NCBI GenBank assembly: GCA_002733505.1
Contig: NVVW01000010.1
Span: forward strand, 18,336 to 82,335
Source of the DNA: Methylophaga sp.
GTDB taxonomy: Bacteria; Pseudomonadota; Gammaproteobacteria; Nitrosococcales; Methylophagaceae
DNA length: 64,000 nt
Reading direction: 5' to 3'
The notes below the pieces were generated by a model. That model did no database searches. It saw only the letters and a program-made list of their open reading frames with translations, and was not told the DNA's origin. This document shows positions 23,706 through 40,551 of the stretch, one piece after another. How positions within the stretch are numbered: the first letter of the stretch is position 1; each line of letters opens with the position of its first letter. The position numbers and the translations under genes are program-made.

Positions 23706-23823
23706 AAACTTATAATTTCATGTATCAACACACCGCGAGAACTTACATCTGGTTCTGTAATGAATACGGGTATATTCAAGGATGAAATATTTTTATAAAT
23801 TTTTATGCTTAGAGGATCTTACT

Positions 23824-24072
23824 ATGGCGACAACAAAGTTAAAGCAATTAGGACAAGGTATGACCGAGTACATCATTATCGTAGCATTGATAGCGATTAC
23901 GGCGATTACCGTTTATAATATTTTCGGCGATACGGTGCGTGGCCAAGTAGGTGATATGGCGGCTGAATTAGGCGGTGGGACAGCGACAGATGCCGGTGCG
24001 GCAGGTGCGGCGGCGGCCAATACTGAAGCGGTAGCAGATTATGGCTTAACAGATTTTAAACAGGCGGAATAG
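23824..24072 (+). CDS. flp: Flp-type major pilin
   Basis: Pilin subunit of the Tad (type IVc) pilus. The ATG at 23824 is chosen because it has a ribosome site (AGAGGA) and gives the usual short leader; the reading frame extends upstream to 23782. The 82-residue precursor has leader MATTKLKQLG, then QGMTEYIII. Cleavage after G10 would leave Glu at position +5 and Tyr at +6, as in Flp pilins. A hydrophobic helix follows, with an Ala/Gly-rich tail. First gene of the long pilus operon. Confidence 0.92.
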   Translation: MATTKLKQLGQGMTEYIIIVALIAITAITVYNIFGDTVRGQVGDMAAELGGGTATDAGAAGAAAANTEAVADYGLTDFKQAE

Positions 24073-24111
24073 CTAAGAGAGATACCTTTTAAGATTAAAT
24101 GACCATTTCTA

Positions 24112-26238
24112 ATGAGAACTTTTTATTGCCTACGCTATAAGCAAAGCGGGCAAGCTATAATATTTGGTTTGCTGTTTATGGCAGTGGCAGTAATGACCTT
24201 ATTGATTCTTTATAATCAGGGTCAGCTAGTGCATAGTCGTGTCCAAATAGAAAATGCGGCTGATGCGGCGGTGTATTCACAAGCTAAGCTGGCAGCACGC
24301 AATCAAAATTTTATTGCTTATACCAATAGGGCGATGGTGGCGAATGAAGTCTCGATTGGCCAAATGGTTGCCTTATTATCTTGGGCAAAACATTATAAAC
24401 AAGTACCTGCCTTCACTAGTTTCCCACTTTATAACGTTCCTATTGCACCACCATCCCCGGTTACGATGGGGCAAATTCTTAATGTGGTTACGACACCTTG
24501 GGTGCTGATGGGGACAGCGGTTGAAGCGCCAACAAACATTATGGTTAATAAGTGGCCAATGGTTATTTCCTATTTTAATGGTGCCTTAGGTTTGTTTCAG
24601 AAAGTATTTGCGCTTTCAACCATGGCAGCGCAGATAGAAATCAATTTAAATGTAGTTGAGGATCATGAGTTTGATCCTGATAATCCAGAAATGTACACCC
24701 CTGTTGTAGGTTGGTATTTCTTTACGCAAAACATATTGCTCACCTATTTCGGTGAGAACTTTAGCCCAGATAATGTGCATAATGCATTGGTGCCAGCCGA
24801 TACTGATGGTGCCGATGAACATGAGTTGGTGGCAGCATTCTTAGGCGGTCAAGTGGGCACGCTAGATACTATGATTAATGATAATACTCCAGGAATTGGT
24901 AGTAGGGCAGCAACCAATGTTGGTGGCGGTGTAAATGCAAATTTAAATGCAAGTGAGGAAGGTGATAGCGCGGTTGAAGCCTATCAGCGCTATGCTGCCA
25001 TTGTAAATAGGAATCGAGAAAGCTTTACTCAAGATCGCCATTGGGATTTTGGTATCAATGAAGGCGTCGGCTTTGATTTGGAAATTCCTTTAGGCATTGT
25101 TACTTTACGGATTGAACTTGATGTTGAGTTTTTTGCAGGCATAAAAAAGGATGGTGGTACCGCTTATTTAGCGAATAATGATTTAGCCAACAATGAGGAC
25201 TTATCCGGTCTAGGGTGGGCTTCAATTGATGTTGCTTCATTTGGTATTGAAGTTGATATTAGTTTATTTGTGAATGTTGAAATTTGTTTTATAGAGTGTA
25301 CTAATTTTGATTTAATTGATGTTGATTTTTCTATCCCCATGGGCTTGCCTTTAGCGGGAGCTACCCATCAAGTTGTGAGTGATGTTGTTGATAGCAAAAA
25401 ACAACTAGCTGATTGGGGGTTCCCGGGGATGAGTGATCCGGGTATGTATGGGGGTGATCCCGATGATTTTGTCAATAACGGCAGCTTTGATTTATTTCAT
25501 GCTGCAGCATTAGGATGGGGGCAAGCATCCCCTAGTTTATTGCCTGGAATGTATGGCATAAGACCTATTGATGTAACTGATAGCTATGGTGCTCCCCCTG
25601 CATTTTATTCATTGGGTGGTGTATTTCAAGAGTCGGGTGTCAGTTATGAATTTACTATTGCTTTAGCGAAAAGCTTAGATGATATTGCAACTAGCGACTC
25701 TGCCGCTATTGATATTAACACAGGCGATGATGCCGATTGGGATGACGGCAATATTGCGTACACGCGGTTTGATATAGACACACGCTCACGGGCAGAGGGC
25801 ACGGATTTTTCTGCCGCTTATCAGCGAGAGGCATGGATGGATGAGCGACCGATGATGACAGTAAGTTCAGCCGAAACCTATTTTTCAAACCCGATGCAAC
25901 AAAATAATGATGGCAGTGCTGAACCGGCCAGTTTATTCAGTCCATTTTGGGATGCCCGACTAAGAGAGCCGAGTGCAGTTGCTATATTAATTGCAACAGG
26001 TGAAGTTGATTGGGAAGATATGATTGATGGCCTCAGTGGCTCCGCAGTTGATATTGTTGAGTGGATGTTGAATGCCGTGGGCGATCGGGTTATTGATAGC
26101 AGTGTAGATTATTTAGTCGCTCAAGTTGACGCGCCCTTTGACAGTGTAATTGAGCCACCGCTACATGATGCCGCAACTCAAGTAAAAGATGTAGCTATAG
26201 GTGCGGCCATTGATCAGCTGGAGGACTTTCTGCCATGA
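24112..26238 (+). CDS. tadG: TadG-like pilus-associated protein
   Basis: Large single-pass protein of 708 residues with a prepilin-like N-terminus (SGQAIIFGLLFM) and a QIENAADAAVYSQAK segment characteristic of TadE/G-like proteins. The +5 Glu of the prepilin motif is replaced by Phe, so processing by a prepilin peptidase is uncertain. The long periplasmic region is Asp- and Gly-rich and has no domain I recognise; no von Willebrand A motif was seen. It overlaps the next gene by four bases. The tadG symbol is by position and N-terminal family only. Confidence 0.7.
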   Translation: MRTFYCLRYKQSGQAIIFGLLFMAVAVMTLLILYNQGQLVHSRVQIENAADAAVYSQAKLAARNQNFIAYTNRAMVANEVSIGQMVALLSWAKHYKQVPAFTSFPLYNVPIAPPSPVTMGQILNVVTTPWVLMGTAVEAPTNIMVNKWPMVISYFNGALGLFQKVFALSTMAAQIEINLNVVEDHEFDPDNPEMYTPVVGWYFFTQNILLTYFGENFSPDNVHNALVPADTDGADEHELVAAFLGGQVGTLDTMINDNTPGIGSRAATNVGGGVNANLNASEEGDSAVEAYQRYAAIVNRNRESFTQDRHWDFGINEGVGFDLEIPLGIVTLRIELDVEFFAGIKKDGGTAYLANNDLANNEDLSGLGWASIDVASFGIEVDISLFVNVEICFIECTNFDLIDVDFSIPMGLPLAGATHQVVSDVVDSKKQLADWGFPGMSDPGMYGGDPDDFVNNGSFDLFHAAALGWGQASPSLLPGMYGIRPIDVTDSYGAPPAFYSLGGVFQESGVSYEFTIALAKSLDDIATSDSAAIDINTGDDADWDDGNIAYTRFDIDTRSRAEGTDFSAAYQREAWMDERPMMTVSSAETYFSNPMQQNNDGSAEPASLFSPFWDARLREPSAVAILIATGEVDWEDMIDGLSGSAVDIVEWMLNAVGDRVIDSSVDYLVAQVDAPFDSVIEPPLHDAATQVKDVAIGAAIDQLEDFLP

Positions 26239-27212
26239 TGAAGTTTGTAAAACTTACCAAGCAAACAGGTCAGGCTATGACGGAATTTGTGGTATCTGTC
26301 AGTTATGTGTTTCTAGGCTTGTTTGTCATTGTACCTACGTTTGGCAAGATCATGGATCTGCAATTTCAAACCCAGCAAGCATCACGCTATGTCGCTTGGG
26401 AAAGAACAGTTTGGTTTGATCAAGGTGAGGCACCAGATGAAAGTGTACAAAGTACGGACTATTGGCAAAGTGTGGCAATACGTAATGATGCTGCTGTGAT
26501 GACATCAATGCAAAACCGATTTTTTTATGGTTCAGGTACCGGTGTTATTAAAGCCGTTACGATTGATGATATCGATGCCGGATCCACCGATGCCAGTCCG
26601 ATATGGACCTATGTACAAAGCAAAAACACCATGTATGGCGGTACCACATTAGATGAAGGTCTTGCTAGGCAGGATACACCTGGTATTGCTTATGAGATCC
26701 TCGGCGTTATGAATACTGGAATGTCAACTATTGCTGAACCATTAAATTCATTGATGGATTTTGTAGGTGGCAATAATGATGATTTTTTAACCTTTGCTTA
26801 TGAACTGGAAAATTATTATAGCCCGGTGATTACCACGCACATTAATATGGCAAATAGTCATGGTGGTGGCGTGGGGGTGTGGGATAGAGATGCTGCGGGG
26901 AATTGGGGTTCGGGCATTGAAGATGCAATTTTCCAAAATTGGAATGGTAAATTACAAGTGCGATCAGCCATATTAGCTGATGGTTGGAATACGCAGAGTT
27001 TAGAGCATTATCAACAACGTGCCGATGATTTTGTGCCTTCGACCTTATTTGATAACGATTTATTCGATGCGGTGATTACGGTAGCTAGCTTTTTAGATGG
27101 TGCTATAGGTGATCTTGAGTTTGGAGCAGTAGGTGTAGAACCTATGCCTGCAGTGGATGGTGAAGCCTTGGGTGTGGATTGTGACGATGGATTTTGCTAT
27201 TACGATGAATAA
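26235..27212 (+). CDS. TadE-like minor pseudopilin
   Basis: 325-residue protein with an N-terminal class III-type prepilin motif: G12 then QAMTEF, giving Glu at +5, followed by a hydrophobic helix. The remaining ~280 residues are predicted periplasmic, acidic and unlike any domain I recognise; the tail ends CDDGFCYYDE with a close Cys pair. It overlaps the TadG-like gene by four bases and the next gene by eight. Probably a minor subunit or assembly factor of the pilus. Confidence 0.75.
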   Translation: MMKFVKLTKQTGQAMTEFVVSVSYVFLGLFVIVPTFGKIMDLQFQTQQASRYVAWERTVWFDQGEAPDESVQSTDYWQSVAIRNDAAVMTSMQNRFFYGSGTGVIKAVTIDDIDAGSTDASPIWTYVQSKNTMYGGTTLDEGLARQDTPGIAYEILGVMNTGMSTIAEPLNSLMDFVGGNNDDFLTFAYELENYYSPVITTHINMANSHGGGVGVWDRDAAGNWGSGIEDAIFQNWNGKLQVRSAILADGWNTQSLEHYQQRADDFVPSTLFDNDLFDAVITVASFLDGAIGDLEFGAVGVEPMPAVDGEALGVDCDDGFCYYDE

Positions 27213-27873
27213 ACAATTTTATCTTATTTTCATAGCGTTAGCATTCTCAATGAATGTATGGGCTGACTGTGATTTTGATGATTTTCCTATTATGGATGAA
27301 ATGAAAGTTCAAAGCGTTCTGGATGATGCAAATTACAATAATCGGCCGATGATGGTGAGAAGCTTTTTGGCCGATGCCAGTTATTTAGAGGTAGTCGCCC
27401 ATTATCATAAGGTTTGGGATGAGCGCTACGATGACACTGCATTTGGGATTTGGCACCAGGTGACCACGATTACTGATGACTGCATGATGACAGTACAGAT
27501 CGCGGCACAACATGCACCAACAAGTTCAGGTCGCTTGATTATTAGTAATCCACCGCAAGGGAGTCCTCAAGCAAAATTAGGTGAGGGTGTATTGGCACCA
27601 GCGGATACTAGAGTTGTGTCTGATTTAATTACCAACGATGGCTCTAAACAAGGCCGAACGACCATGCTAACCAGCGCTGAAAGTGCGCATTCAGTAGCCG
27701 CATTCTATCTGAGTGAAATGCAGAGTAAAGGCTGGCATCTTCAGCGAAATTTTATGGAAGGTTCAGCCCATGCCTTAGTTTTTCGTGATGGTTTGGATAT
27801 TAGTAATATTGTTATTTTACCAACAGGCGATAATAAAACACAAATTCTAATTAACGAGGTGATAACGCAATGA
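27205..27873 (+). CDS. Unknown periplasmic protein in the Tad operon
   Basis: Not recognised. The ATG at 27205 gives a clean signal peptide (MNKQFYLIFIALAFSMNVWA) and an 8-base overlap with the upstream gene; an earlier in-frame Met at 27157 would spoil the signal. The 222-residue product has a mature CDFDDFPIM start and a central region resembling the small alpha/beta domains of pilus-associated exported proteins. It overlaps the next gene by four bases (ATGA), so it is translated with the pseudopilins. Confidence 0.7.
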   Translation: MNKQFYLIFIALAFSMNVWADCDFDDFPIMDEMKVQSVLDDANYNNRPMMVRSFLADASYLEVVAHYHKVWDERYDDTAFGIWHQVTTITDDCMMTVQIAAQHAPTSSGRLIISNPPQGSPQAKLGEGVLAPADTRVVSDLITNDGSKQGRTTMLTSAESAHSVAAFYLSEMQSKGWHLQRNFMEGSAHALVFRDGLDISNIVILPTGDNKTQILINEVITQ

Positions 27874-28898
27874 AACGTCGTCAATTAGGGCAAGCCATGG
27901 TGGAGTATATAATTGTTACTGCGGCTTTTGTGGGTGCTTTTTTCTGGAGTGCAAATGCTGACTGCCCAGGTTATGACAACTGTATATCTAAAGTACTCAC
28001 AGTGATGCATGACAATTTTGAAGGTTATTCTAATTCAATATCTTCAGTACAAAAATATGGCGATTTCACTACAGATGGTGGTGGTGATGCTAGTGGTGGC
28101 GGTGACGGCGGCAGTGGCGGTGACGATGGTGGCGGCAGTGGTGGTGACAGTGGCCCCCCCGTATTAAATCCAGATGGAATCACTGAAGTAGCGTTAGCTA
28201 CTAGTTCTACGGGTTTGAGCACCTATGGCTACTTGCGAGCAGATGGGACGGTTGTTGATGGTCGAGGTAATGTGGTGGGCTTTTATTCCGAAACCGATAA
28301 TACCCTAACAACAGTTGAAGGCAGTGTTATCAATAATGTCGTTATTGATCGCGTAATTGTAGATGAAGAGGGCAATATTTTACATTTACGTGCGGTCACT
28401 GGCTGTTCAGGATCGCCGGCTGCTGTTTATGCTTGGGGCTATAAAAGTAAAGCATCGGGCAAGGTATTTAATAACGTTAATCAAAATGAATTAAATATTG
28501 GAGGCTTATGTACAAAGGCTTCATTTAAAGTGGTTAATAATAATCAGCAACCGCAAGCCGGGCGCGTTATTGATGGTGAATATTATGCCGCTGTGTTTGC
28601 TGTTAGTGTGAGTAGCGCTCCTCTAGAGCCAAATGGGGAGGTGATTTATTGGCAAGATTTGGGCATTTGTTCCATCATGGCAATTGATTGGGATGATAGC
28701 GTCAACCACAGTGCCCATCCAGAAGATGTTTATGAGCAGCAGTTACTCTTATTTGCTGATGAAGATGAGAAAATTGGCGAAATGGATCAAATAGATTATG
28801 TTGAACAAACGGCAATCTATGGTGTGGCTGTTGAGCCCAATGATTGCCCTAGTGCACGAGTGATTTCCCAACCAGATCCAGTATTTCCATTTATATAA
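27870..28898 (+). CDS. Pseudopilin-like protein with Gly/Ser/Asp-rich linker
   Basis: 342-residue protein. The N-terminus has a prepilin motif with leader MKRRQLG then QAMVEY (Glu at +5). After the hydrophobic helix and ~50 residues, a linker at about 70-98 is almost entirely Gly, Ser and Asp. A ~240-residue C-terminal domain of unknown type follows, with several cysteines. The layout suggests a pilus-tip or adhesive minor subunit displayed on a flexible stalk. That role is inference; the signal and linker are seen directly. Confidence 0.72.
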   Translation: MKRRQLGQAMVEYIIVTAAFVGAFFWSANADCPGYDNCISKVLTVMHDNFEGYSNSISSVQKYGDFTTDGGGDASGGGDGGSGGDDGGGSGGDSGPPVLNPDGITEVALATSSTGLSTYGYLRADGTVVDGRGNVVGFYSETDNTLTTVEGSVINNVVIDRVIVDEEGNILHLRAVTGCSGSPAAVYAWGYKSKASGKVFNNVNQNELNIGGLCTKASFKVVNNNQQPQAGRVIDGEYYAAVFAVSVSSAPLEPNGEVIYWQDLGICSIMAIDWDDSVNHSAHPEDVYEQQLLLFADEDEKIGEMDQIDYVEQTAIYGVAVEPNDCPSARVISQPDPVFPFI

Positions 28899-28915
28899 TT
28901 TAGGTATTAATAGCA

Positions 28916-30631
28916 ATGAAAAAACAATCAGGACTCCGCTTAACTATTGTTGCAATTGTGTGCGGCATTTTAGCTGCGGCATTAACGATATTTTATTTAA
29001 AACAAGTTGAATCGAAATATCGAAAAGCAAGTCAACCTGTTCAGCAGCTTATGGTATCAGTAGTGGTGCCAAAAGCAGATTTGAAAAAAGGCAGTGTTAT
29101 TACCGCAAAATCTGTTGCAGCTCGTGATGTGCCAAAAGAATTTTTACCTTCAAATGTCATTATAGCGAAAGACTTTAAAAAGTTGGTGAATCGTACATTG
29201 TTGATGCCCGTTCAAACAGGCAGGCCTATCACTTGGGAAGCAGTAACCGGTAAATCAGCAAGAACATTCTCTGAAAATATTGAATTAGGCAGAAGGGCCC
29301 GTAGTGTCAAAGTCAATAAAGTTGATTCTTTTGATGGTTTGTTACGCCCTGGTGATCGTATTGATTTAATGGGAAGTTTCACCTTGACATCATTAGGTAT
29401 GGATGTGATTGCTACCGGTACTACTCAAACGGTTCCGGAAGATATTATTATGCCGATCCTTGAAAATATTGAAGTACTGGCCGCAGGCAAAGAAGATCTG
29501 CATGGTAGGAAATATGAATACAGTAATACTAAAAAATCAGTTGATGGCTTTAATATGGAGTTTACTATTGTCTCACTGAATTTAACGGCAAAACAAATTG
29601 CCCGCGTTGAGCTGGCAGAAGGTTTTGGCGATATGTTTGCGGTATTAAGGCATCCTAAAGATACCAGTAAAGTGAACTTTGATTATGTAGGCGTAGAGAT
29701 TTTATTTGAAAAAGATGAACCAGAAAAAATAGATTTGGTATTGAGTGCGGATGGTAAACCGCTAGGCAGAATTATTGGCGATAATATAGTCGATGAGAAT
29801 GGCAATATCATCGGTAAAGTAGTCAATGGGCAAGCGGTTACGTTTGATGGCAAACCGATGGGGCAGATAGTCACCAATGTGAGTGCCGATGATCCTATTC
29901 TTAATGTTGCAGAAATTGCTGATGTTGTACGCGATGCCGAAGGCAATATTATCGGCAAGATTGTGGATGGAAAAATCGTCGATGAAAGCGGTAATATTAT
30001 CGGGGAAGTCGATGAAAATGGCAATGCGGTGAGTTTAACGGGTGAAGTAATAGGTGTTATTGATAAAGGTGTTGCCTTAGATATTAATGGTAATGAGATT
30101 GCTTTGTCTTTGTCTGATGCGACCAAACAAATTTTACGTGAAGAACAAGTTGTACGTGATGCCGAAGGCAATATCATTGGCAAAATTGTTGATGGTCAGA
30201 TAGTTGATGAAAAAGGCAATGTTATTGGTAAAGTCGATGAGCTAGGTAATGCTGTCAGCTTAGACGGTGAGGTATTAGGTGTTATTGATACGGTTATGGT
30301 GACAGTGAGTGGCGAGATTGTTCGAGAACAGCAAGTTATCAGAGATGAGGATGGCAATATTATTGGTAAAGTTATTGATGGTCAGATCATTGATGAGCAA
30401 GGCAATGTTATAGGTAATGTTGATGAGAAGGGCAATGCTGTCAGTCTAGGCGGCGAGGTATTAGGTGTGATTGATACAGTCATGATGACAGTGAGTGGCG
30501 AGATTATTGATCCTACATCAACAATAGAAGAAGATATTACCACTGGCTTTCAACGTGATTATGTTGACTTTATTTCAGGTGGAACAGGTAAGGATGGCAT
30601 TATTCCTGTGATTAGAATTCGCAAACAATAA
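28916..30631 (+). CDS. cpaB: Pilus assembly protein CpaB/RcpC with added repeat region
   Basis: Periplasmic, inner-membrane-anchored Tad assembly factor. Residues 1-270 show the usual CpaB layout: membrane helix about 9-28, SAF domain starting near VSVVVPKADLKKG, then the RcpC core with DRIDLMG and VARVEL-type segments. The protein is 571 residues, about twice the usual 260-300. The extra part is a repeat array at about 285-530 built on GNIIGKIVDG and GNVIGKVDE units. The final RDYVDFISGG...VIRIRKQ resembles a normal CpaB end, so the array is inserted before the C-terminus rather than tacked on. The frame is open throughout. Confidence 0.88.
   Translation: MKKQSGLRLTIVAIVCGILAAALTIFYLKQVESKYRKASQPVQQLMVSVVVPKADLKKGSVITAKSVAARDVPKEFLPSNVIIAKDFKKLVNRTLLMPVQTGRPITWEAVTGKSARTFSENIELGRRARSVKVNKVDSFDGLLRPGDRIDLMGSFTLTSLGMDVIATGTTQTVPEDIIMPILENIEVLAAGKEDLHGRKYEYSNTKKSVDGFNMEFTIVSLNLTAKQIARVELAEGFGDMFAVLRHPKDTSKVNFDYVGVEILFEKDEPEKIDLVLSADGKPLGRIIGDNIVDENGNIIGKVVNGQAVTFDGKPMGQIVTNVSADDPILNVAEIADVVRDAEGNIIGKIVDGKIVDESGNIIGEVDENGNAVSLTGEVIGVIDKGVALDINGNEIALSLSDATKQILREEQVVRDAEGNIIGKIVDGQIVDEKGNVIGKVDELGNAVSLDGEVLGVIDTVMVTVSGEIVREQQVIRDEDGNIIGKVIDGQIIDEQGNVIGNVDEKGNAVSLGGEVLGVIDTVMMTVSGEIIDPTSTIEEDITTGFQRDYVDFISGGTGKDGIIPVIRIRKQ
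29924..30475 (+). repeat. In-frame repeat array inside cpaB
   Basis: Three clear 47-residue copies start at residues 337 (29924), 412 (30149) and 474 (30335). Consensus pieces are VVRDAEGNIIGKIVDG, IVDExGNVIGxVDE and GNAVSLxGEVLGVID. The last two copies share a further 15-residue trailer (TVMxTVSGEI...), giving a 62-residue (186-base) period. A weaker copy lies at about residues 285-320. It is coding repeat, not CRISPR: no spacers and the frame is kept. Confidence 0.93.
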
Positions 30632-30713
30632 TTTGGGTATAGGACCTTAATGCGTTAGCCATATTCAGGTAATGGGTATACATATTTTAAACTTAAAAAA
30701 TAAGAAGAAAAAC

Positions 30714-32210
30714 ATGATGAAAGTAATAATAAGGCAATCACTTTTGCTAGCATTGCTGTTAATGTTAGCGACTGTGGCAATGGATATACAAGCACATGCC
30801 CAACGTGTTTTAGCAAAGTCACTGATTTTGTATGAAGGTGAATCTAAAGTAATAAAGGTGCCTGATGTTGAGCGAATATCGGTAGGCAAGTCTGAGTTAG
30901 TGAGTACCACGCTATTAAAGAATGGTGAAATTGTGCTCACTGCTGAGGGTGCAGGTGAAACCAATATGCAAGTGTGGTTTAACGATGGTCGTCGGGAAAT
31001 TTTATCATTAATTATTGTGAGTTCTGATGGTTGGCGCGAAGCATATGAAATTAAAGAACTATTAAAAGATGTGCAGGGGATTAAAGTAACAACATTAGGG
31101 CGGCGAGTGGTTATTGATGGTGAGTTAAAGTTGCGTGATTTAGATAGGGTTAATATATTGAAAGAACGCTATAGCGATATTTTAGTGTTGGCGCGAACTA
31201 TTACCACTGATCAAGAAGTGTTAGAAATTAAAAGTCTACTTAAAGGTATTGCAGGGATCAAAATATCAGTTATTGACCAACAAGTTGTGGTAGACGGCAA
31301 TTTACAAAATCGGGACTTGGAGCGGATAAAACTGCTTCAAGAGCGTTATCCCAATATTTTGGTATTAGCACGTGAGATCACCGCTTTTGAAGAGAAGATG
31401 ATTTATTTTGATGTGCGGGTAACGGAGTTTTCTAAAGATTACACTGAAAATATTGGCATTAACTGGCAGAAGAGTTTTGGTGGTCCTATAGTAAATTTAG
31501 CTAAAAATGTGTTACATGCAGGTAATGCAACACCTGATTTTAGTGGTTCATCGACGGTTGCTGCATTTGACAATTTTCAGACTGCAACGTCGGCTAGCGC
31601 AGCATATTTTGGTATTGCGACAGAGATCACCTCAATTATTAACTTGTTGGAGCAATCAGGTGCGGCACTAACACTTGCCCACCCACGCTTGAGTGCACGT
31701 AGTGGTGGCTCTGCTAACTTAACCGTCGGAGGGGAAGTGCCGGTAGTAACCAGTTCAATTAATGGTTCAAGTGTTGAATATAAAGATTTTGGTATTTTGC
31801 TGAAAATTGAGCCAACGCTTGATACCTACAATAATATTACTGCACGTGTTGATATAGCAATTAGCCAATTAGATTTGGCGAATGCGGTCAATGGTCAACC
31901 CGCATTTAAAAAACGCTCAACAGTGAACGATGTAAAACTTAAGCCAGGAGAAACACTGGTTCTATCTGGGTTGATAACCCGCGAGGAACAAAAGACATCA
32001 AGTAATGTTAAGTGGTTATCGGATATCCCTATTCTGGGTCATTTATTCAGATCTAAAAGCTTTGTAGAGGGTGAAACAGAAATGGTTATTTTTATAACAC
32101 CTACCATTTTGGAAAACTTAGACGAAGGTATCAACCAACAAGAAATAGCTAAAGCTGCCAAGATGATTGAGCTGTTTGATTCTGAAAAACTTTACGATCT
32201 TATGGATTAA
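30714..32210 (+). CDS. cpaC: Tad secretin CpaC/RcpA
   Basis: Outer-membrane secretin channel of the Tad pilus. The ATG at 30714 gives a normal signal peptide ending near QAHA; the frame opens earlier at 30672, but that start would bury the signal. The 498-residue protein has an N-terminal pilus-type domain (LYEGESKVIKVPDVERISVG), then two tandem ~55-residue modules (EIKELLKDVQGIKV... and EIKSLLKGIAGIKI...) that look like duplicated BON/N-type domains. The secretin core follows, with VGGEVPVV and LKPGETLVLSGLI. An 82-base gap to cpaB holds no other gene. Confidence 0.92.
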   Translation: MMKVIIRQSLLLALLLMLATVAMDIQAHAQRVLAKSLILYEGESKVIKVPDVERISVGKSELVSTTLLKNGEIVLTAEGAGETNMQVWFNDGRREILSLIIVSSDGWREAYEIKELLKDVQGIKVTTLGRRVVIDGELKLRDLDRVNILKERYSDILVLARTITTDQEVLEIKSLLKGIAGIKISVIDQQVVVDGNLQNRDLERIKLLQERYPNILVLAREITAFEEKMIYFDVRVTEFSKDYTENIGINWQKSFGGPIVNLAKNVLHAGNATPDFSGSSTVAAFDNFQTATSASAAYFGIATEITSIINLLEQSGAALTLAHPRLSARSGGSANLTVGGEVPVVTSSINGSSVEYKDFGILLKIEPTLDTYNNITARVDIAISQLDLANAVNGQPAFKKRSTVNDVKLKPGETLVLSGLITREEQKTSSNVKWLSDIPILGHLFRSKSFVEGETEMVIFITPTILENLDEGINQQEIAKAAKMIELFDSEKLYDLMD

Positions 32211-32217
32211 TATTAAC

Positions 32218-33870
32218 GTGTTTGAATTAAAAATTGTAGATAAAAAAGGGACTGAGATTGACAATGTTCGCTGTGGTGCGGATAGCTGTGAATTAGGCAG
32301 TGCACGTGATGGCATTAGTCGCATAAGAGGTTGGCGCGTAGCGCCACAACATGCTCGGTTTGTTAAAGAATTGGCGGGTGTTTTTGTTGAAGATATTAGC
32401 AATGGCTACGGCATAAGCATAAATGGTAATGAAATGGAACGTTATGGACCACTTCAAGCTGAGGATATTATCACTATTGCTGGATATCGCATAACAGTGA
32501 TTAATGATGATGATGCAGGTGCAACGGAGAGTATCGAAGAAAACACGGCCATGGAGAATGAAGCTGATAGTTCTGAAGATATTTCGCAACAGAATAATAG
32601 TCGGTTAGTCTATATGGAGTGGGCAAAATTTGTTCATCAAGAGCTATTGCGTCAAATGGATCTCCGTCGCATGCATTTAGATGAATTAGCCCCTGAAAAA
32701 GTGAGAGAGAAGCTAAGTGTACTGGTTGAAGAGATCATTGTATCAATGGTAGATCGCCTTCCTAAAGCTCTTGAACATAATGTGCTTGCCAAAATTGTAT
32801 TAGATGAAGCTATAGGTCTAGGGGCATTAGAAGACTTGCTCGCAGACAGTAATGTGACAGAAATCATGGTCAATGCGTATGATGATATTTATATAGAAAA
32901 AGCGGGGCGGCTATTAAAAACAGATACTACCTTTACCAGTAATGACGCTGTTATGGCGACAATTGAACGCATTATTTCCCCATTAGGTCGGCGGATTGAT
33001 GAAAGTTCGCCAATGGTTGATGCACGTTTAGCCGATGGTTCTAGGGTAAATGCTATTATTCCGCCACTAGCACTACGCGGCCCGTGCATAACGATCCGTA
33101 AGTTTTCAGAAAAGAAATTAACAGATAGAGATCTGATCCGCTTTGTTACGCTTAATGAATCAATGGTGAGCTTTATTCGTATGTGTGTTGAACAAAGAAA
33201 GAATATTATTGTGTCAGGGGGAACCGGATCAGGCAAAACAACCTTATTGAATATTTTATCTAATTATATTCCGCTTAGTGAACGTGTGGTAACGGTTGAA
33301 GATGCGGCTGAGCTGCGTTTAGTACAACCCCATGTTGTGTCATTAGAAGCTAGACCACCCAATATGGAAGGGCGCGGACAAGTAACCATAAGAGATCTGG
33401 TTAAAAATTGTTTACGAATGAGGCCTGATCGAATTGTGGTGGGTGAGTGTCGAGGAGGCGAAGCACTTGATATGTTGCAAGCAATGAACACAGGTCATGA
33501 TGGCTCGTTAACGACTGCACATGCTAATACGCCAAGAGATATGTTACGGCGGATGGAAGTAATGGTGTTAATGGCGGGGATGGATCTGCCGGTATCGGCA
33601 ATAAGAGAACAAATAGCCTCGGCAGTGCATATTGTGATTCAGCAAACCCGTTTTGGTGACGGCAGTCGTAAGATCACTAATATTAGTGAAATTACGGGCA
33701 TGGAATCCGGTACGATTCAAATGAATGAAATTTTTAAATTTAAACAACAAGGCTTTGATGACAATGGTCGAATTAGAGGCGATTTTGTGGCAACGGGCAC
33801 CGTACCCAAATTTTACGAAGAATTGAGAGAACGGGGCGTTACCGTTGATATGAGTATTTTTCAACAATGA
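32218..33870 (+). CDS. tadA: Tad pilus ATPase TadA/CpaF with N-terminal FHA-like domain
   Basis: Secretion ATPase driving pilus assembly. The GTG at 32218 is chosen: it follows the cpaC stop and starts the folded region (FELKIVDKKG), whereas the frame opens inside cpaC at 32167. Of 550 residues, about 1-100 look like an FHA phosphopeptide-binding domain (GSARD, QHARF, DISNGYGISING). An acidic linker follows, then the CpaF ATPase with Walker A GGTGSGKTT at 334-342 and a GECRGGEALDMLQAMNTGH segment. Usual CpaF proteins lack the FHA part. No Ser/Thr kinase gene is in the window. Confidence 0.92.
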   Translation: MFELKIVDKKGTEIDNVRCGADSCELGSARDGISRIRGWRVAPQHARFVKELAGVFVEDISNGYGISINGNEMERYGPLQAEDIITIAGYRITVINDDDAGATESIEENTAMENEADSSEDISQQNNSRLVYMEWAKFVHQELLRQMDLRRMHLDELAPEKVREKLSVLVEEIIVSMVDRLPKALEHNVLAKIVLDEAIGLGALEDLLADSNVTEIMVNAYDDIYIEKAGRLLKTDTTFTSNDAVMATIERIISPLGRRIDESSPMVDARLADGSRVNAIIPPLALRGPCITIRKFSEKKLTDRDLIRFVTLNESMVSFIRMCVEQRKNIIVSGGTGSGKTTLLNILSNYIPLSERVVTVEDAAELRLVQPHVVSLEARPPNMEGRGQVTIRDLVKNCLRMRPDRIVVGECRGGEALDMLQAMNTGHDGSLTTAHANTPRDMLRRMEVMVLMAGMDLPVSAIREQIASAVHIVIQQTRFGDGSRKITNISEITGMESGTIQMNEIFKFKQQGFDDNGRIRGDFVATGTVPKFYEELRERGVTVDMSIFQQ

Positions 33871-34739
33871 TTGCAGAATTGATTAGTGGCGGCTTATTAT
33901 CAGCTATTGTATTACTGATATTTGTTTCAGTAACCGCTTTGATTGCGACATCAGCTAATTGGTTGGGTGAGTTTTCACGTGTTTATAAACAACGCTTTAC
34001 AAAAAATGCCGATCGGCAATTAGCCGATATGTTTGTATTTACCGATGTGAGCTATTTATTTCTCATCAATATCATTGCGTTACTTTTAATACCGACATTG
34101 GTTCACTACTTATTCCAGTTATGGGTTATTACATGGAGTGTTTTAGGGGTATTGCTGTTTATTCCAGGTCTGATATGGGCATCATTGCGAAAAAAACGTT
34201 TTCGTAAATTTGAAGCGCAATTACCCGATGCCTTTATAATGTTATCGAGTAGTTTGCAATCTGGAGCTAGTCTTAATATGGCGTTAGAAACGGTCACGAA
34301 ACAGTCCCCTGCACCCTTGAGCCAAGAGTTCGGTCTATTAGTAAAACGAATGAGGTTAGGGGTAAGTTTAGAGGACGGCTTGATTGAATTAGAACAGCGG
34401 ATCCCATTGCAAAGTTTTATTATGGCAAGCTCAGCTATTCGAATTAGTCGAGAAGTAGGGGGCAACCTAGTAGAAACAATTAACACTATGGCAAAAACAT
34501 TAAGACGTAAAAAAATGATGGAAGGAAAAATTGACAGTCTCACAGCACAGGGGCGGGCTCAAGGCACGTTTATGGCGATGCTGCCTATTGTGTTAGCAAT
34601 ATTATTAAGCTTTATTGAGCCCGAAGCAATGACAAAGCTTTATACCACCAAAGAAGGCTTGGTCGTGCTAGCGATAATGGTCATTATGCAGGTATTGGGC
34701 TTTATTTTTATTCGTAAAGTAACATCAATAGATAGCTAA
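33867..34739 (+). CDS. tadB: Tad inner-membrane platform protein TadB
   Basis: One of the two T2SF/GspF-type polytopic proteins anchoring the pilus motor. The 290-residue product has N-terminal membrane segments, a cytoplasmic T2SF domain (LPDAFIMLSSSLQSGASLNMALE) and two C-terminal membrane helices. It overlaps tadA by four bases. Length and order are standard. Confidence 0.92.
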   Translation: MIAELISGGLLSAIVLLIFVSVTALIATSANWLGEFSRVYKQRFTKNADRQLADMFVFTDVSYLFLINIIALLLIPTLVHYLFQLWVITWSVLGVLLFIPGLIWASLRKKRFRKFEAQLPDAFIMLSSSLQSGASLNMALETVTKQSPAPLSQEFGLLVKRMRLGVSLEDGLIELEQRIPLQSFIMASSAIRISREVGGNLVETINTMAKTLRRKKMMEGKIDSLTAQGRAQGTFMAMLPIVLAILLSFIEPEAMTKLYTTKEGLVVLAIMVIMQVLGFIFIRKVTSIDS

Positions 34740-34753
34740 GGAGGCAAGTAAGC

Positions 34754-35638
34754 ATGTTTGATGATCTAATTGTATTGGCAGCGGGTATGAGCGTAGGTAC
34801 TGCTGTTGCTTGTTCTGTTTTACTGCTGATCCTATTGGTTAGCATGGTAGGTAAGGATAGTCGGAAATATATGGATCCACCGCCAGCTTTTATGCTGCCG
34901 GTTTGGCCTTTAATTAAAATCGTGAGTTTTTTTATTGGCAATAATCTACCTGCCAGTTATTTAAATAAATTGGATGCAAAGTTACAAAAGAATAGTTTAG
35001 GATTTGTGCTGACAGCAGAAGAATATTTTTCTGCATGTTTTGTTTTTGCGCTACTGTTACCTGCATTAGCGGCTATTCCACTGGTTAGTTCAGGTGACGT
35101 CAGTGTGGGACTGTTAATTATTTTGGCAATCATTGGTTTTATATTGCCCGAAGCATGGGTGAAAGATGCACGTAGAAAACGAGATGTGGCGATTATTCAA
35201 AGCTTACCAACTTATTTAGACTATTTAAGTATGTGTGTCGATGCGGGTCTTAACTTCTCCGGCGCCCTTAAACAAGCCGTTGAAAAAGGCCCTAAAGGTG
35301 CAATGAATAACGAGTTTCGAATAGTGTTACGTGATATCAATTCTGGACAGACTAGGGCCGATGCTTTGAGCCGATTAGAACAGCGTGTTGCTCTCAAAGA
35401 TGTCACGATTTTTGTGAGTGCAGTGATCCAAGCTGAAAAAATGGGTTCCAGTATGCGAGAAACACTACTTATTCAGGCTGAACAACGCTTAGATGAACGT
35501 TTTCAACGAGCAGAAAAAATGGCAATGGAAGCTCCTGTTAAATTAGTAATTCCGCTTATCGCGTTTATTTTTCCGTTAACATTTATTATTTTATTATTCC
35601 CAATCGTAATAAAGTTTTTAGAGCAAGGCGCACTGTGA
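34754..35638 (+). CDS. tadC: Tad inner-membrane platform protein TadC
   Basis: Second T2SF-type platform protein, 294 residues. Membrane segments occur near residues 10-30 and 90-135. The cytoplasmic domain has LPTYLDYLSMCVDAGLNFSGAL, and the C-terminal helix pair ends in FPLTFIILLFPIVIKFLEQG. A good ribosome site (AAGGAGG) precedes the ATG. It ends in a GTGA overlap with the DUF192 gene. Confidence 0.92.
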   Translation: MFDDLIVLAAGMSVGTAVACSVLLLILLVSMVGKDSRKYMDPPPAFMLPVWPLIKIVSFFIGNNLPASYLNKLDAKLQKNSLGFVLTAEEYFSACFVFALLLPALAAIPLVSSGDVSVGLLIILAIIGFILPEAWVKDARRKRDVAIIQSLPTYLDYLSMCVDAGLNFSGALKQAVEKGPKGAMNNEFRIVLRDINSGQTRADALSRLEQRVALKDVTIFVSAVIQAEKMGSSMRETLLIQAEQRLDERFQRAEKMAMEAPVKLVIPLIAFIFPLTFIILLFPIVIKFLEQGAL

Positions 35639-35988
35639 AGCAGAGCGAGATAGTAATCTCACGCGATGGCTCACATATTGTTACTTTAAATGGGTTACAG
35701 ACTGAAACGCTGAAAGAGCGATTGGGTGGTTTGTTGGTCAAAAATAAATTGGCAGAAAAAGAAGGGTTATGGTTAACATCATGTAGTGCTATTCATACTT
35801 GTGGTATGAAATATAGCCTTGATTTAATTTATGTCGATAGACATGATCGTATTTGTGGGATCTCTGCAAACATAAAGCCTTGGCGTATGAGTTTGTGTCT
35901 TAAAGCAACGGCAACAATTGAGGTAATAGCGGGGAGCATTAGTCAGTTTGGTATTAGAGAGGGAGATAATTGTATATGGCAAAATTAA
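35635..35988 (+). CDS. DUF192 family protein in the Tad operon
   Basis: 117-residue protein starting with GTG, whose GTGA overlaps the tadC stop. It matches the DUF192 pattern: GLWLTSCSAIHTCGM, LDLIYVD and PWRMSLC. No signal peptide is seen, unlike exported family members. DUF192 genes are commonly found inside tad loci, but their role is unknown. It slightly overlaps the tadD start. Confidence 0.85.
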   Translation: MKQSEIVISRDGSHIVTLNGLQTETLKERLGGLLVKNKLAEKEGLWLTSCSAIHTCGMKYSLDLIYVDRHDRICGISANIKPWRMSLCLKATATIEVIAGSISQFGIREGDNCIWQN

Positions 35989-36431
35989 TGGTGACAATTT
36001 GTGCTTGTGTATTATTAAGTGCTTGCAATCATACATCGGTTAAAAAAATAACAAACTTGCTGGAACAACAAATTGAAGCAGACAATTACTACGCACAAGA
36101 TCAATGCGAAAAAGCACTACCACTTTACAAAGAGTTATCGCAGGCAATGCTGACAGATACTAATAGCCTCCTAAGGATGGGGAATTGTTATGCAAGAGAA
36201 CAAAATTACAGTCAAGCTGAGCGCGCTTATATTCTGGCATTAGAACGCGATCCAAGTTTTATAAAGGCGTGGTATAACTTGTCTTATATTCGAGCAAGAA
36301 TATTGGCTAGAACCGTGTCTGAAATGTATAAAAATGTTGATCCTTCTTCAGAAGATGCTGAAAAAATAAGGGCATTAACAGTAGATATACTTGCACCTTT
36401 CAATTTAGAATTAGATATGCAGCATGAATAG
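35976..36431 (+). CDS. tadD: TPR lipoprotein TadD
   Basis: Small outer-membrane-type lipoprotein with TPR repeats that assists Tad secretin assembly. The ATG at 35976 is chosen over an in-frame TTG two codons earlier. The 151-residue product has a signal ending LLSAC, and TPR helices including QCEKALPLYKELSQAM and YSQAERAYILALERDPSF. It overlaps DUF192 upstream and the TadE-like gene downstream by eight bases. Confidence 0.85.
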   Translation: MAKLMVTICACVLLSACNHTSVKKITNLLEQQIEADNYYAQDQCEKALPLYKELSQAMLTDTNSLLRMGNCYAREQNYSQAERAYILALERDPSFIKAWYNLSYIRARILARTVSEMYKNVDPSSEDAEKIRALTVDILAPFNLELDMQHE

Positions 36432-37260
36432 TCTCGATTTTATCTGTCGGCGTGATAGAACCGGAAAGGGACAGGCAATGATCGAGTTTCTTATTGTTAT
36501 TCCGGTATTAATTTTACTGATATTTGGAGCAATACAAATAGGGCTTATTTATTCTGCTAAGACAACATTAAATTATGCAACATTCCAATCGGCACGGTTA
36601 GGTGCGGTCAATAATGCAACGTATACTTCATTACGACGAGGACTTATTCGGGGTTTAGCGCCGTTATTTACTAGCACTGCAACCCTGACAAACCTAAAAA
36701 GTGATATAGAAACAGGGATCGATAGTAGTGGTGTTCGGCGTGATGCTACTAGTGAAGTGGATAGTTACACGCGGATCATTAGAATCAGCCCAATGAGCTC
36801 GCATTTCGACAGTGCGGCTTTTGGTGTGCAAAATGATGAGGGCATTTACCAGATCCCCAATGATAATTTAATGTATCGCCCAGATGATAGGGTTGATGAT
36901 GTATCTATCCAAGATGCAAATTTATTGAAAATTAGAGTTCAATATTGTTATAAACTAATGGTTCCATTGGTCAACCGCGTTATTGGTAGCTTAAGTGAAC
37001 TAAATAATCAGCGAACCAATCAACAGGTTTATGAAACACTACATGATCCGCGTTTTGCTGATGCCAATAGATTTCATGTTAATAATGCCGCTGGTATTTT
37101 AGCGAGTTATAATGAGCTGTGCGGTGATAGGGCACTTGATAATTCGGGGTTTATCATATCAGCAGATATTATTGTTAGAATGCAATCTACTGCTTATGAA
37201 GAAGAGAATGGTGATTTTGCAGCGAATATGTGTGATGGTGTCAGAATGTCATGTCCTTAG
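36424..37260 (+). CDS. tadE: TadE-like pseudopilin, last gene of the Tad operon
   Basis: 278-residue protein with leader ending G16 and QAMIEF (Glu at +5), a hydrophobic helix, then the canonical TadE segment NYATFQSARLGAVNNATY. The periplasmic part is ~220 residues and ends with a Cys pair (MCDGVRMSCP). It best fits classical TadE/TadF among the pseudopilins of this locus. A terminator follows, so the pilus operon probably ends here. Confidence 0.85.
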   Translation: MNSLDFICRRDRTGKGQAMIEFLIVIPVLILLIFGAIQIGLIYSAKTTLNYATFQSARLGAVNNATYTSLRRGLIRGLAPLFTSTATLTNLKSDIETGIDSSGVRRDATSEVDSYTRIIRISPMSSHFDSAAFGVQNDEGIYQIPNDNLMYRPDDRVDDVSIQDANLLKIRVQYCYKLMVPLVNRVIGSLSELNNQRTNQQVYETLHDPRFADANRFHVNNAAGILASYNELCGDRALDNSGFIISADIIVRMQSTAYEEENGDFAANMCDGVRMSCP

Positions 37261-37365: not shown

Positions 37366-37587
37366 ATGCGAATATTGGTTTTAATTGTAATCGGGCTTTT
37401 GCTTTATATGATTATAAATAATCTTTTTCGAAAAAAAGATAGGTTAGAGTCACCAGAGGAATTAGGCAAAATGGTGCGTTGTAAATATTGTGAGTTACAT
37501 ATTTTAGAGCAAGAATCTGTCGAATCAGCGGATGATTATTTTTGTTCACAAGCGCACCTTGAGCTTGAGGCTAAGCAGAAAAAATAA
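37366..37587 (+). CDS. PP0621 family protein
   Basis: 73-residue protein with an N-terminal membrane helix (about 2-20), then a zinc-ribbon-like CKYC ... YFCSQAH region. This matches the PP0621 family, which regularly precedes pilS-pilR in gammaproteobacteria. Function unknown. pilS begins within a few bases of its stop. Confidence 0.85.
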   Translation: MRILVLIVIGLLLYMIINNLFRKKDRLESPEELGKMVRCKYCELHILEQESVESADDYFCSQAHLELEAKQKK

Positions 37588-37597
37588 GGTGAAAATA

Positions 37598-39190
37598 GTG
37601 CGCCCGCAATCACCTGGTAGCGATATTTCTGCTTGGCGAGAATTGACCGCCTTTTCAGCGTATCGGATTTTTCTATCTGTTGCACTGTTTGTTGTTTTCT
37701 ACCTTAAGCTACCGCCGGAATTTCTAGGCGAGCAATCCCCCCATTTATACAAAATAATTAGTACGTTATATTTGTTTGTGGCAGCCCTCTTTATGGTGCT
37801 GGCATTGCAGCGTAGAACCACATTTGTCACGCAAGCAACAATACAATTACTTGTTGATGTTGTTATTTTAACCTTGCTGTTACACGCCAGTGGTGGTTTA
37901 GGCACGGGTTTCGGTGGTTTATTGATTGTCGTTGTTGTTGCGGGTGGTGCACTGATTCCTGGGCGACTATCTTTGTTTGTCGCGGCAGTAGCAACAGTAT
38001 TGCTCTTAGCTGAAGCTTTGCTGACAGCCCTTAATGGTGGCACCATTGAGTACAGCCAAGTGGGCATGCTCGGCGCTACTTTCTTTATTACAGCGCTATT
38101 AGCACAAATATTAGGCAGTCGTATTAGAAAAACGGAGCGATTAGTAGAGCAACACGCGGAAGATGCAAATAGATTAAGCCTATTAAATCAACATATTATT
38201 GAAAGGTTACATGTTGGGGTGATGATTGTTGATAAAGATAATATTGTTTATTCGACCAACAAGTCAGCTCAAGTTTTATTAGGTGTGACAGAAGCTATTA
38301 ATGGCGAGCATATATCAGAGCAGTTGCCTGAATTATTCGGTCAATTAGGCAATTGGCGTCAAGGTAGAGTAGGGGTGGTGGGTGAGTTCCAACCGCAACC
38401 AGGTTTTGCAGAAATATTACCTCAAATGATCGCCTTAGAAGAGGGTGACACCTTGATTTTTTTAACGGATACTACTGAGCTAACACAGCAAGCTCAGCAA
38501 ATGAAGTTAGCGTCACTTGGGCATATGGCGGCAAGTATTGCTCATGAAGTTCGAAATCCATTAGGGGCTATTAATCATGCGGCTGAATTATTGGCCGAAG
38601 CAGAAGTTGCAGAAAAAGACCAAAAATTATTAACGATAATTCAGCGGCAAAGTCTTAGAGTAAATGGTATTATTGACGCGGTATTACAGCTAGGAAGACG
38701 TAAGATCCTAAATAAATCAACATTTGTTCTAGCGCCTTGGTTGGAACAGTTTATAGAAGAATTTAAGCACAATGAACGTATTACTGAAGGTGCGATACAG
38801 CTAAAACTTGCATCTGTTCTTACACAGGTTAGGGTAGATCAAGAGCAATTAAGACAGATCATGGTTAACTTATGCAGCAATGCTTGGCATTATTCTGATA
38901 GAACGTCTGCGGATGAGACGAGACCGCAAATATTGATCCGTATGCGTAAAATAAATAACGAAATATTGATTGAGGTTATAGATAATGGTCCTGGTGTTTC
39001 GGAAACAGCATTACCTCAGCTGTTTGAGCCTTTTCAATCAGAACGCACAGGTGGAATTGGTCTGGGTTTATTCCTTGCCCGTGAAATGGCATTAGCAAAT
39101 GGCATAAGATTGGATTATATAACGACAGAAGGTAACTATGGCGGATACTTTAGGGTGACGTTCAATTCTGAATTAAAAGGAAAAATGTGA
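37598..39190 (+). CDS. pilS: Sensor histidine kinase PilS
   Basis: Kinase of the PilS-PilR pair controlling type IV pilin transcription through sigma-54. The GTG at 37598 is chosen because AAGGTGA lies about six bases upstream; the frame opens earlier at 37532 inside the previous gene. The 530-residue protein has six N-terminal membrane segments, a PAS domain near 200-290, H316 in IAHEVRNP and an ATPase domain with NGPGVS and GGIGLGLFLA. Its end overlaps the pilR start (TGATG). Confidence 0.9.
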   Translation: MRPQSPGSDISAWRELTAFSAYRIFLSVALFVVFYLKLPPEFLGEQSPHLYKIISTLYLFVAALFMVLALQRRTTFVTQATIQLLVDVVILTLLLHASGGLGTGFGGLLIVVVVAGGALIPGRLSLFVAAVATVLLLAEALLTALNGGTIEYSQVGMLGATFFITALLAQILGSRIRKTERLVEQHAEDANRLSLLNQHIIERLHVGVMIVDKDNIVYSTNKSAQVLLGVTEAINGEHISEQLPELFGQLGNWRQGRVGVVGEFQPQPGFAEILPQMIALEEGDTLIFLTDTTELTQQAQQMKLASLGHMAASIAHEVRNPLGAINHAAELLAEAEVAEKDQKLLTIIQRQSLRVNGIIDAVLQLGRRKILNKSTFVLAPWLEQFIEEFKHNERITEGAIQLKLASVLTQVRVDQEQLRQIMVNLCSNAWHYSDRTSADETRPQILIRMRKINNEILIEVIDNGPGVSETALPQLFEPFQSERTGGIGLGLFLAREMALANGIRLDYITTEGNYGGYFRVTFNSELKGKM

Positions 39191-40551
39191 TGCGGCCCCA
39201 AGCACTTATTATTGATGATGAGCCTGATATTTTAGATTTATTGCTGATGACATTGGAAACGATGGGCGTTGATTGTCGTACAGCTGAAAATATCGCTCAG
39301 GCACACAAAGCGCTGCAAGAACAAGTGTTTGATATTTGTTTAACGGATATGCGCTTGCCTGATGGTGATGGCATTGATTTAGTGAAAATAATGCAGCGAG
39401 ACTATCCTCAAACCCCCGTTGCTATGATCACTGCACATGGCAGTATGGAGCTTGCTGTCGAGGCGTTGAAGGCGGGCGCATTTGATTTTGTATCTAAACC
39501 GCTAAAGCTAAAAGTATTGCGAGACTTGGTGGAGACAGCCATTAGATTATCAAAAAAGACGGATAATTCACTTACAGAGCAAACTGTTGCAGACAAGAAA
39601 CTATTAGGTGAAACAGCAGCGATACGTGATGTGAAGAATAAGATTGCTAAATTAGCGCGCAGCCAGGCTCCTGTTTATATCAGTGGTGAGTCGGGTACAG
39701 GTAAGGAATTAGTTGCACGTCTTATCCATGAACAAAGTGCACGTTCAGAAGCTGCTTTTATACCGGTAAACTGTGGCGCAATTCCTGCTGATCTGGTTGA
39801 AAGTGAATTTTTTGGTCACAAGAAAGGATCGTTTACCGGTGCCATAGCCGATAAAGAAGGCTTATTTCAAGCCGCCAATAAGGGCACGTTATTTTTAGAT
39901 GAGATCGCTGATTTGCCGCTTGCCATTCAAGTTAAACTATTGCGTGCAATACAAGAAAAAGCGGTGCGCCCTGTAGGTGGCAATGAAGAAATAGCGGTTG
40001 ATGTGCGTATTTTGTGCGCAACGCATAATAATTTAGCCGAAAAAGTAAGGCAAGGTCAATTTAGAGAAGATCTTTACTATCGTGTAAACGTGATTGAGCT
40101 TAATGTACCTCCACTGCGAGAACGTAAAGAAGATATTGCTATTTTGGCAAAACATATTATTGATCAAATGGCAGAACGTCACCAGCGAGAAATACCTTCA
40201 ATATCAGATGATGCACTGACCGTTTTAAGTCAGCATTCATTTCCGGGTAATGTTCGAGAGCTTGAGAATGTATTAGAGCGAGCAATGACATGGATGGAGG
40301 GAGATGAAATTACTGCGGATGATCTTGTCTTAACGGAAACCACAGTTGCATCGGAAGGATCTGCAACAATGGAAGAGTCAAAAATACCACCATCAGCAAT
40401 AAATCTAGGAGGGCAGCTTGAAGATCAAGAGCGATTATTGATTACTCAGGCATTAGAATCTACACGCTGGAATAAAACGGCTGCCGCAAAAAAATTAGGG
40501 ATCACTTTTCGTGCTTTGCGATATAAGTTGAAAAAACTAAATTTGGAATAA
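39190..40551 (+). CDS. pilR: Sigma-54-dependent response regulator PilR
   Basis: NtrC-type activator of 453 residues. The receiver has D53 in LTDMRLPDGDG. The AAA+ domain has Walker A GESGTGKE at 166-173 and the sigma-54 contact loop GSFTGA at 213-218 (Ser in place of the common Ala, as in PilR relatives). The C-terminal Fis-type helix-turn-helix reads NKTAAAKKLGITFRALRYK. The ATG at 39190 shares its A with the pilS stop. Its pilin target genes are not in the window. Confidence 0.93.
   Translation: MRPQALIIDDEPDILDLLLMTLETMGVDCRTAENIAQAHKALQEQVFDICLTDMRLPDGDGIDLVKIMQRDYPQTPVAMITAHGSMELAVEALKAGAFDFVSKPLKLKVLRDLVETAIRLSKKTDNSLTEQTVADKKLLGETAAIRDVKNKIAKLARSQAPVYISGESGTGKELVARLIHEQSARSEAAFIPVNCGAIPADLVESEFFGHKKGSFTGAIADKEGLFQAANKGTLFLDEIADLPLAIQVKLLRAIQEKAVRPVGGNEEIAVDVRILCATHNNLAEKVRQGQFREDLYYRVNVIELNVPPLRERKEDIAILAKHIIDQMAERHQREIPSISDDALTVLSQHSFPGNVRELENVLERAMTWMEGDEITADDLVLTETTVASEGSATMEESKIPPSAINLGGQLEDQERLLITQALESTRWNKTAAAKKLGITFRALRYKLKKLNLE

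Follow-up and report, generated by a model that had tools for sequence, protein, structure and literature searches.

The CpaB/RcpC alignment-complex protein of the Tad locus in the window (the whole stretch of 64,000 nucleotides that was analysed) was found to be enlarged by an array of about 300 residues of repeats in linker L3, between its ring-forming domain D2 and its C-terminal hairpin. We give about an even chance to this array being a spacer arm or tether built of beta modules, with a reach that depends on how many of them there are. The first-pass annotation had implied that the repeats were unique to this protein; instead, arrays in L3 were found in a clade of gammaproteobacterial Tad systems, while most CpaBs elsewhere are without them.

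The identity of the protein as CpaB, as previously annotated, was confirmed by matches to TIGR03177 (122.9 bits, cut-off 71), to PF16976 RcpC (58 bits, cut-off 28.8) and to SAF. The CpaB profile match ended near aa 252, and the core profile matched the solved RcpC of P. aeruginosa (9gzr) at E 1.4e-17. The protein is laid out as an N-terminal membrane helix (aa 5–38 in the AlphaFold model, partly at low confidence), SAF (D1), RcpC (D2), the repeat array in L3 and the C-terminal hairpin, the last located by its sequence motif and modelled by AlphaFold at pLDDT <50 (Table 1). This order, with a putative hairpin at the end, is shared with P. aeruginosa RcpC, the gene of which also lies beside that of the secretin; however, RcpC has a short L3, as opposed to about 300 aa of repeats in the window CpaB. 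At 571 aa the protein is, as had been noted, about twice the normal size, since most array-free CpaBs measured are 257–302 aa long.

Table 1. Features of the Tad locus and of its CpaB, in window coordinates.
Feature	Position	Strand	Basis
Probable Flp major pilin, 96 aa	23782..24072	+	ORF, prepilin-like N-terminus; conserved in related loci
TadG-like protein	24112-26238		Tad domain (Pfam)
CpaB/RcpC alignment-complex protein	28916..30631	+	571 aa ORF
SAF domain (aa 49-109)	29060..29242	+	Pfam PF08666, 34.5 bits
RcpC ring domain D2 (aa 117-245)	29264..29650	+	Pfam PF16976; profile match to solved RcpC 9gzr
Array module 1, degenerate (aa 263-336)	29702..29923	+	AlphaFold strands aa 271-323
Array module 2 (conserved repeat aa 337-383 and 28-aa spacer)	29924..30148	+	DNA repeat, AlphaFold
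Array module 3 (aa 412-473, 62-aa period)	30149..30334	+	DNA repeat, TRF, AlphaFold
Array module 4 (aa 474-535)	30335..30520	+	DNA repeat, TRF, AlphaFold
C-terminal hairpin motif VDFISGGTGKDGIIPVIRIRKQ (aa 549-571)	30560..30628	+	Counterpart of RcpC secretin-docking hairpin; function from PMC12307814
Secretin CpaC/RcpA, expected CpaB docking partner	30672..32210	+	Pfam Secretin 129.5 bits, PF13629 44.1 bits
CpaF ATPase, N-terminal FHA fusion	32167..33870	+	Pfam T2SSE 202.5 bits, FHA 27.5 bits (cut-off 20.7)
TadB and TadC platform proteins	33867..35638	+	Pfam T2SSF in both

The conserved 47-aa repeats, each opening with V[VI]RD, begin 75 and 62 residues apart, at aa 337, 412 and 474, and are preceded by a degenerate unit at aa ~266–323. 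The first-pass description of three 47-residue repeats plus a degenerate one, the last two with a 62-residue period and all inserted ahead of the usual C-terminus, was therefore accurate. An array was indeed present at the 29771–30480 given for it, but on account of the degenerate unit its true start lies ~60 nt earlier, at about 29711; its last module ends near 30505–30520. Independently, at the DNA level, three in-register copies of 186 nt were observed at 29906, 30131 and 30317, and TRF reported an array at 30167–30505 with a period of 186 and a score of 517. The copies differ at 43–70% of synonymous sites and at only 10–17% of nonsynonymous sites (dN 0.11–0.20 versus dS 0.64–2.0). This synonymous divergence excludes an assembly artefact, and a collapsed or false repeat, which had been named as a possible refutation, is further ruled out by separately assembled genomes in which this architecture recurs with a different number of copies. 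As dN is well below dS between copies, the array protein appears to be under purifying selection. An antisense open reading frame at 29683–30183 was set aside as a mirror of the CpaB repeat.

A resemblance of the repeats to DUF3659 (PF12396) had been suspected and was substantiated by profile search, with 46 bits for the whole CpaB and 53.8 bits for the array against a cut-off of 24.8; the match consists of six to seven stretches and it is their total score that lies above the cut-off. The beta-flower families Bflower (PF21784; 46–51 bits (46.4 bits; cut-off 25)) and Bflower_2 (PF21785; 57–61 bits (56.7 bits; cut-off 38)) were also matched, and CpaB was the only match to PF21785 in the genome of the window. 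Every DUF3659 and beta-flower match was lost when the array was residue-shuffled or reversed, indicating that the matches are not due to composition. Pfam matches of array CpaBs to flagellar hook D1, DUF6799, fvmX5 and Spa1_C were rejected as likely cross-matches of Gly/Asp repeats. The core was poorly predicted in the first AlphaFold model, probably because the alignment consisted of four sequences, and modelling of the array alone resulted in four all-beta modules with pLDDT mostly 80–93, in keeping with the short beta-hairpins anticipated. Foldseek returned no match at E <= 0.001 for either model against the PDB or for the array model against BFVD, with very high rmsd in the alignments, and when the full-length CpaB was searched by sequence against solved structures, no relative of the array was returned. 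Of the solenoid spanning the periplasm that had been suggested, the span fits the position of L3; a continuous solenoid is not evident from the models, which give four modules and have unreliable Foldseek alignments. With the array as query, searches of plasmids, of phages and of 274 gammaproteobacterial genomes at E <= 1e-12 gave as sole match the CpaB of the window's own genome, and thus no function could be borrowed from elsewhere.

The distribution of the arrays was evaluated in 369 gammaproteobacterial genomes, 54 of which had a CpaB over the cut-off. On reading the proteins, L3 arrays were found in 13 of the 54, the window included; four more array proteins (two from Gilvimarinus, one from Methylophaga and one from G010, a genome of the window's genus) raised the number to 17, and a contig-cut copy of an array CpaB was present in G024. 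L3 spanned 138–523 aa in array CpaBs compared to 30–89 aa in array-free ones, the latter range being that of the proteins for which L3 could be delimited on either side; automatic placement of the L3 borders missed the array proteins L069 and L068. Despite this variation in L3 length, D2 and the C-terminal hairpin are retained. In fact, every array CpaB with an intact end has its array exactly between these two elements, followed by a hairpin motif in extended form that reads approximately [DEQ][FLY][IL].GG....[GN][VIA]. Several sequence types of array occupy this one place, other lineages keeping the place and not the sequence, and DUF3659 was matched by 13 of the 17 array CpaBs versus 0 of 34 array-free ones. 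The number of modules is about 3 in G010, 4 in the window, 5 in L021 and about 8 in Gilvimarinus. In a phylum-wide sample, the open frame was at most 393 aa in every CpaB among the matches listed (to about E 3e-59).

When the presence of an array was mapped onto trees of the CpaF and CpaB cores, it required only 2 changes as opposed to 13–15 with shuffled labels, and a single array clade was not rejected on the CpaF tree (p-AU 0.32). Methylophaga and Gilvimarinus are the nearest named relatives at the CpaB locus, and the window locus groups with Methylophaga, same-genus and Gilvimarinus loci with a support of 100/100 despite their different families. CpaB relatives were found in 2 of 24 other genomes of the window's genus, meaning that the Tad locus is sporadic there. 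This sporadic occurrence, together with the grouping with Gilvimarinus of another family, suggests that the locus at 23782–37260 may have been acquired by horizontal transfer. Four FHA-type loci (L053, L063, L071 and L072) encode CpaBs with long array-free tails after D2; these tails may be what is left of arrays since lost, or may be of other types.

The Tad locus encodes a Flp-like pilin, a TadG-like, a TadE-like and a prepilin-like protein, CpaB, the secretin, FHA-CpaF, TadB, TadC, a DUF192 protein, a TPR protein and TadE. The secretin contains a tandemly duplicated BON-like periplasmic segment of 59 aa (aa 119–177 and 178–236; 31026–31379). Two such segments occur only in array loci (6 of the 17), with one or none elsewhere; the duplication is suggestive of a longer conduit, though it covers only about three lineages. 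An FHA-like N-terminal extension of CpaF, tested against Pfam in the window, was present in all array loci with a readable CpaF, and a 'GW' subtype of FHA marks the array-bearing branch as well as some array-free sister loci. CpaF with an N-terminal FHA domain is also a feature of the Tad-like Kil system of Myxococcus. Kil is however without TadG, RcpB and the pilotin TadD, and its secretin is without N0 (PMC8460266), whereas the window locus has a TadG-like and a TPR protein and its secretin has an N-terminal domain (PF13629). The prepilin-like protein at 27870–28898, for which no Pfam match was found, has a Gly/Asp-rich tract with one hairpin-like stretch, DGTVVDGRGNVVGFY, in a style like that of the CpaB repeats. 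The DUF192 gene (35635–35988) lies between those of TadC and the TPR protein and recurs in many related Tad loci. Directly downstream of the locus, at 37532–40551, are genes for a PilS-like histidine kinase and a sigma-54 response regulator, a pair that possibly regulates it.

The functional reading of the array draws on RcpC of P. aeruginosa, in which D2 forms a dodecameric ring with contacts from L3, L3 joins the ring to the C-terminal hairpin, this hairpin is modelled as docking on the N-domain of the secretin, and its deletion abolishes Tad function (PMC12307814). An insert between D2 and the hairpin must accordingly affect how far apart ring and secretin lie or how they are mechanically linked, and as the array sits between the ring and the tip that in Pseudomonas docks on the secretin, it is probably a length-adjustable spacer arm. 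Against this reading, L3 of RcpC itself touches the neighbouring protomer (PMC12307814), and a long insert must leave these contacts intact. The window CpaB would be an ordinary Tad alignment-ring protein in which a modular arm of beta-hairpins has lengthened L3. Up to twelve arms, taking the dodecamer from P. aeruginosa RcpC, would rise from the ring anchored in the inner membrane, and the C-terminal hairpin of each would dock on the N-domain of the outer-membrane secretin as in the P. aeruginosa homologue. Acting as a spacer or tether with a reach given by its number of modules, the arm would hold the ring and the secretin together where the periplasm is wider or varies in width, and it may also keep the sticky pilus from touching the cell wall. 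The position in L3, the predicted beta modules, the occurrence across a clade, the differences in copy number between species and the purifying selection come from the present analysis; that the arm sets the distance from ring to secretin is an inference. It is conceivable, though doubtful, that the copy-number-variable arm is a molecular ruler or telescoping tether for this distance that is tunable by evolution. Between the lengths of L3 and of the secretin there was no correlation (rho −0.19, p 0.48, n 16, with the L3 value of L069 estimated by hand) and hence no direct length matching was seen.

The arms might alternatively enclose the pilus channel above the ring as a sheath or gate, either to shield the adhesive pilus or to retain it until docking of the secretin, with the length of the arms being secondary. 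Such a function agrees with the position of L3 and with the AlphaFold modules, twelve beta arms would be bulky enough for it, and the authors of the RcpC study propose that the hairpin region may act as a lid on the ring and that the conduit may hold the pilus away from the cell wall (PMC12307814). We consider it unlikely, as no sequence feature singles out gating and a length spread of 138–523 aa is unexpected of a fitted lid.

The array contains 1% aromatics and carries a net charge of −37. Nearly aromatic-free and strongly acidic in the window's lineage, it looks more like a spacer than like a domain that binds a ligand, and this composition would fit an inert spacer as expected. The peptidoglycan binding suggested in the first-pass annotation is not supported, given the same properties. 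More generally, that the array binds peptidoglycan, lipid or another envelope ligand is quite unlikely, although the beta-flower profiles matched above their cut-offs belong to a clan (CL0395) that includes the phosphoinositide-binding Tubby domains (PMC10584680). The likeness extends to the tips of the hairpins, the defining beta-flower motif being [DNEQ]xxG (PMC10584680) and that of the array D-x-[DN]-G. Beta-flower petals are however basic and Phe-tipped (PMC10584680), whereas the CpaB modules are without aromatic or basic tips and are repeated inside a ring protein, the best stretch of the array covers just part of the profile, and arrays of other lineages share the place without the sequence. 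The beta-flower barrel is closed and shallow, with 4- or 5-fold symmetry; the array model has four all-beta modules. Slippage-driven expansion of little function, tolerated in a flexible L3, would account for the variable copy number and for a recent near-identical repeat duplicate in G010 (dS 0.35), yet it is very unlikely in view of the purifying selection on the copies, their confident folding and the retention of arrays through a large clade. A calcium-stiffened rod, in which Ca2+ bound by the D-x-[DN]-G turns would make a flexible arm rigid and its loss the reverse, is suited by the acidity and by the tip consensus D-x-[DN]-G-N (D first in 64 of 78 aligned hairpins) but is highly improbable, as no Ca2+-binding family scored over the cut-off in the Pfam search of CpaB and some array types (L066, L043 and L060) are near neutral.

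In the literature searched, neither a mention of DUF3659 in Tad proteins nor a description of repeats in CpaB was found. The parts are known; what is new, and was not found in that literature, is a Tad alignment protein with folded L3 repeat arms across a clade. The proposed spacer arm bears on the question of how a periplasm 20–50 nm wide is crossed by Tad and other type IV pilus machines. The modelled RcpA–RcpC complex is ~3 nm short of the measured periplasm width, a gap that its authors ascribe to linkers (PMC12307814); for Caulobacter an additional protein, CpaI, has been proposed as a bridge (PMC13170226). CpaBs with linkers grown by folded modules, to lengths that differ from lineage to lineage, constitute a natural length series for tests of the distance between ring and secretin.
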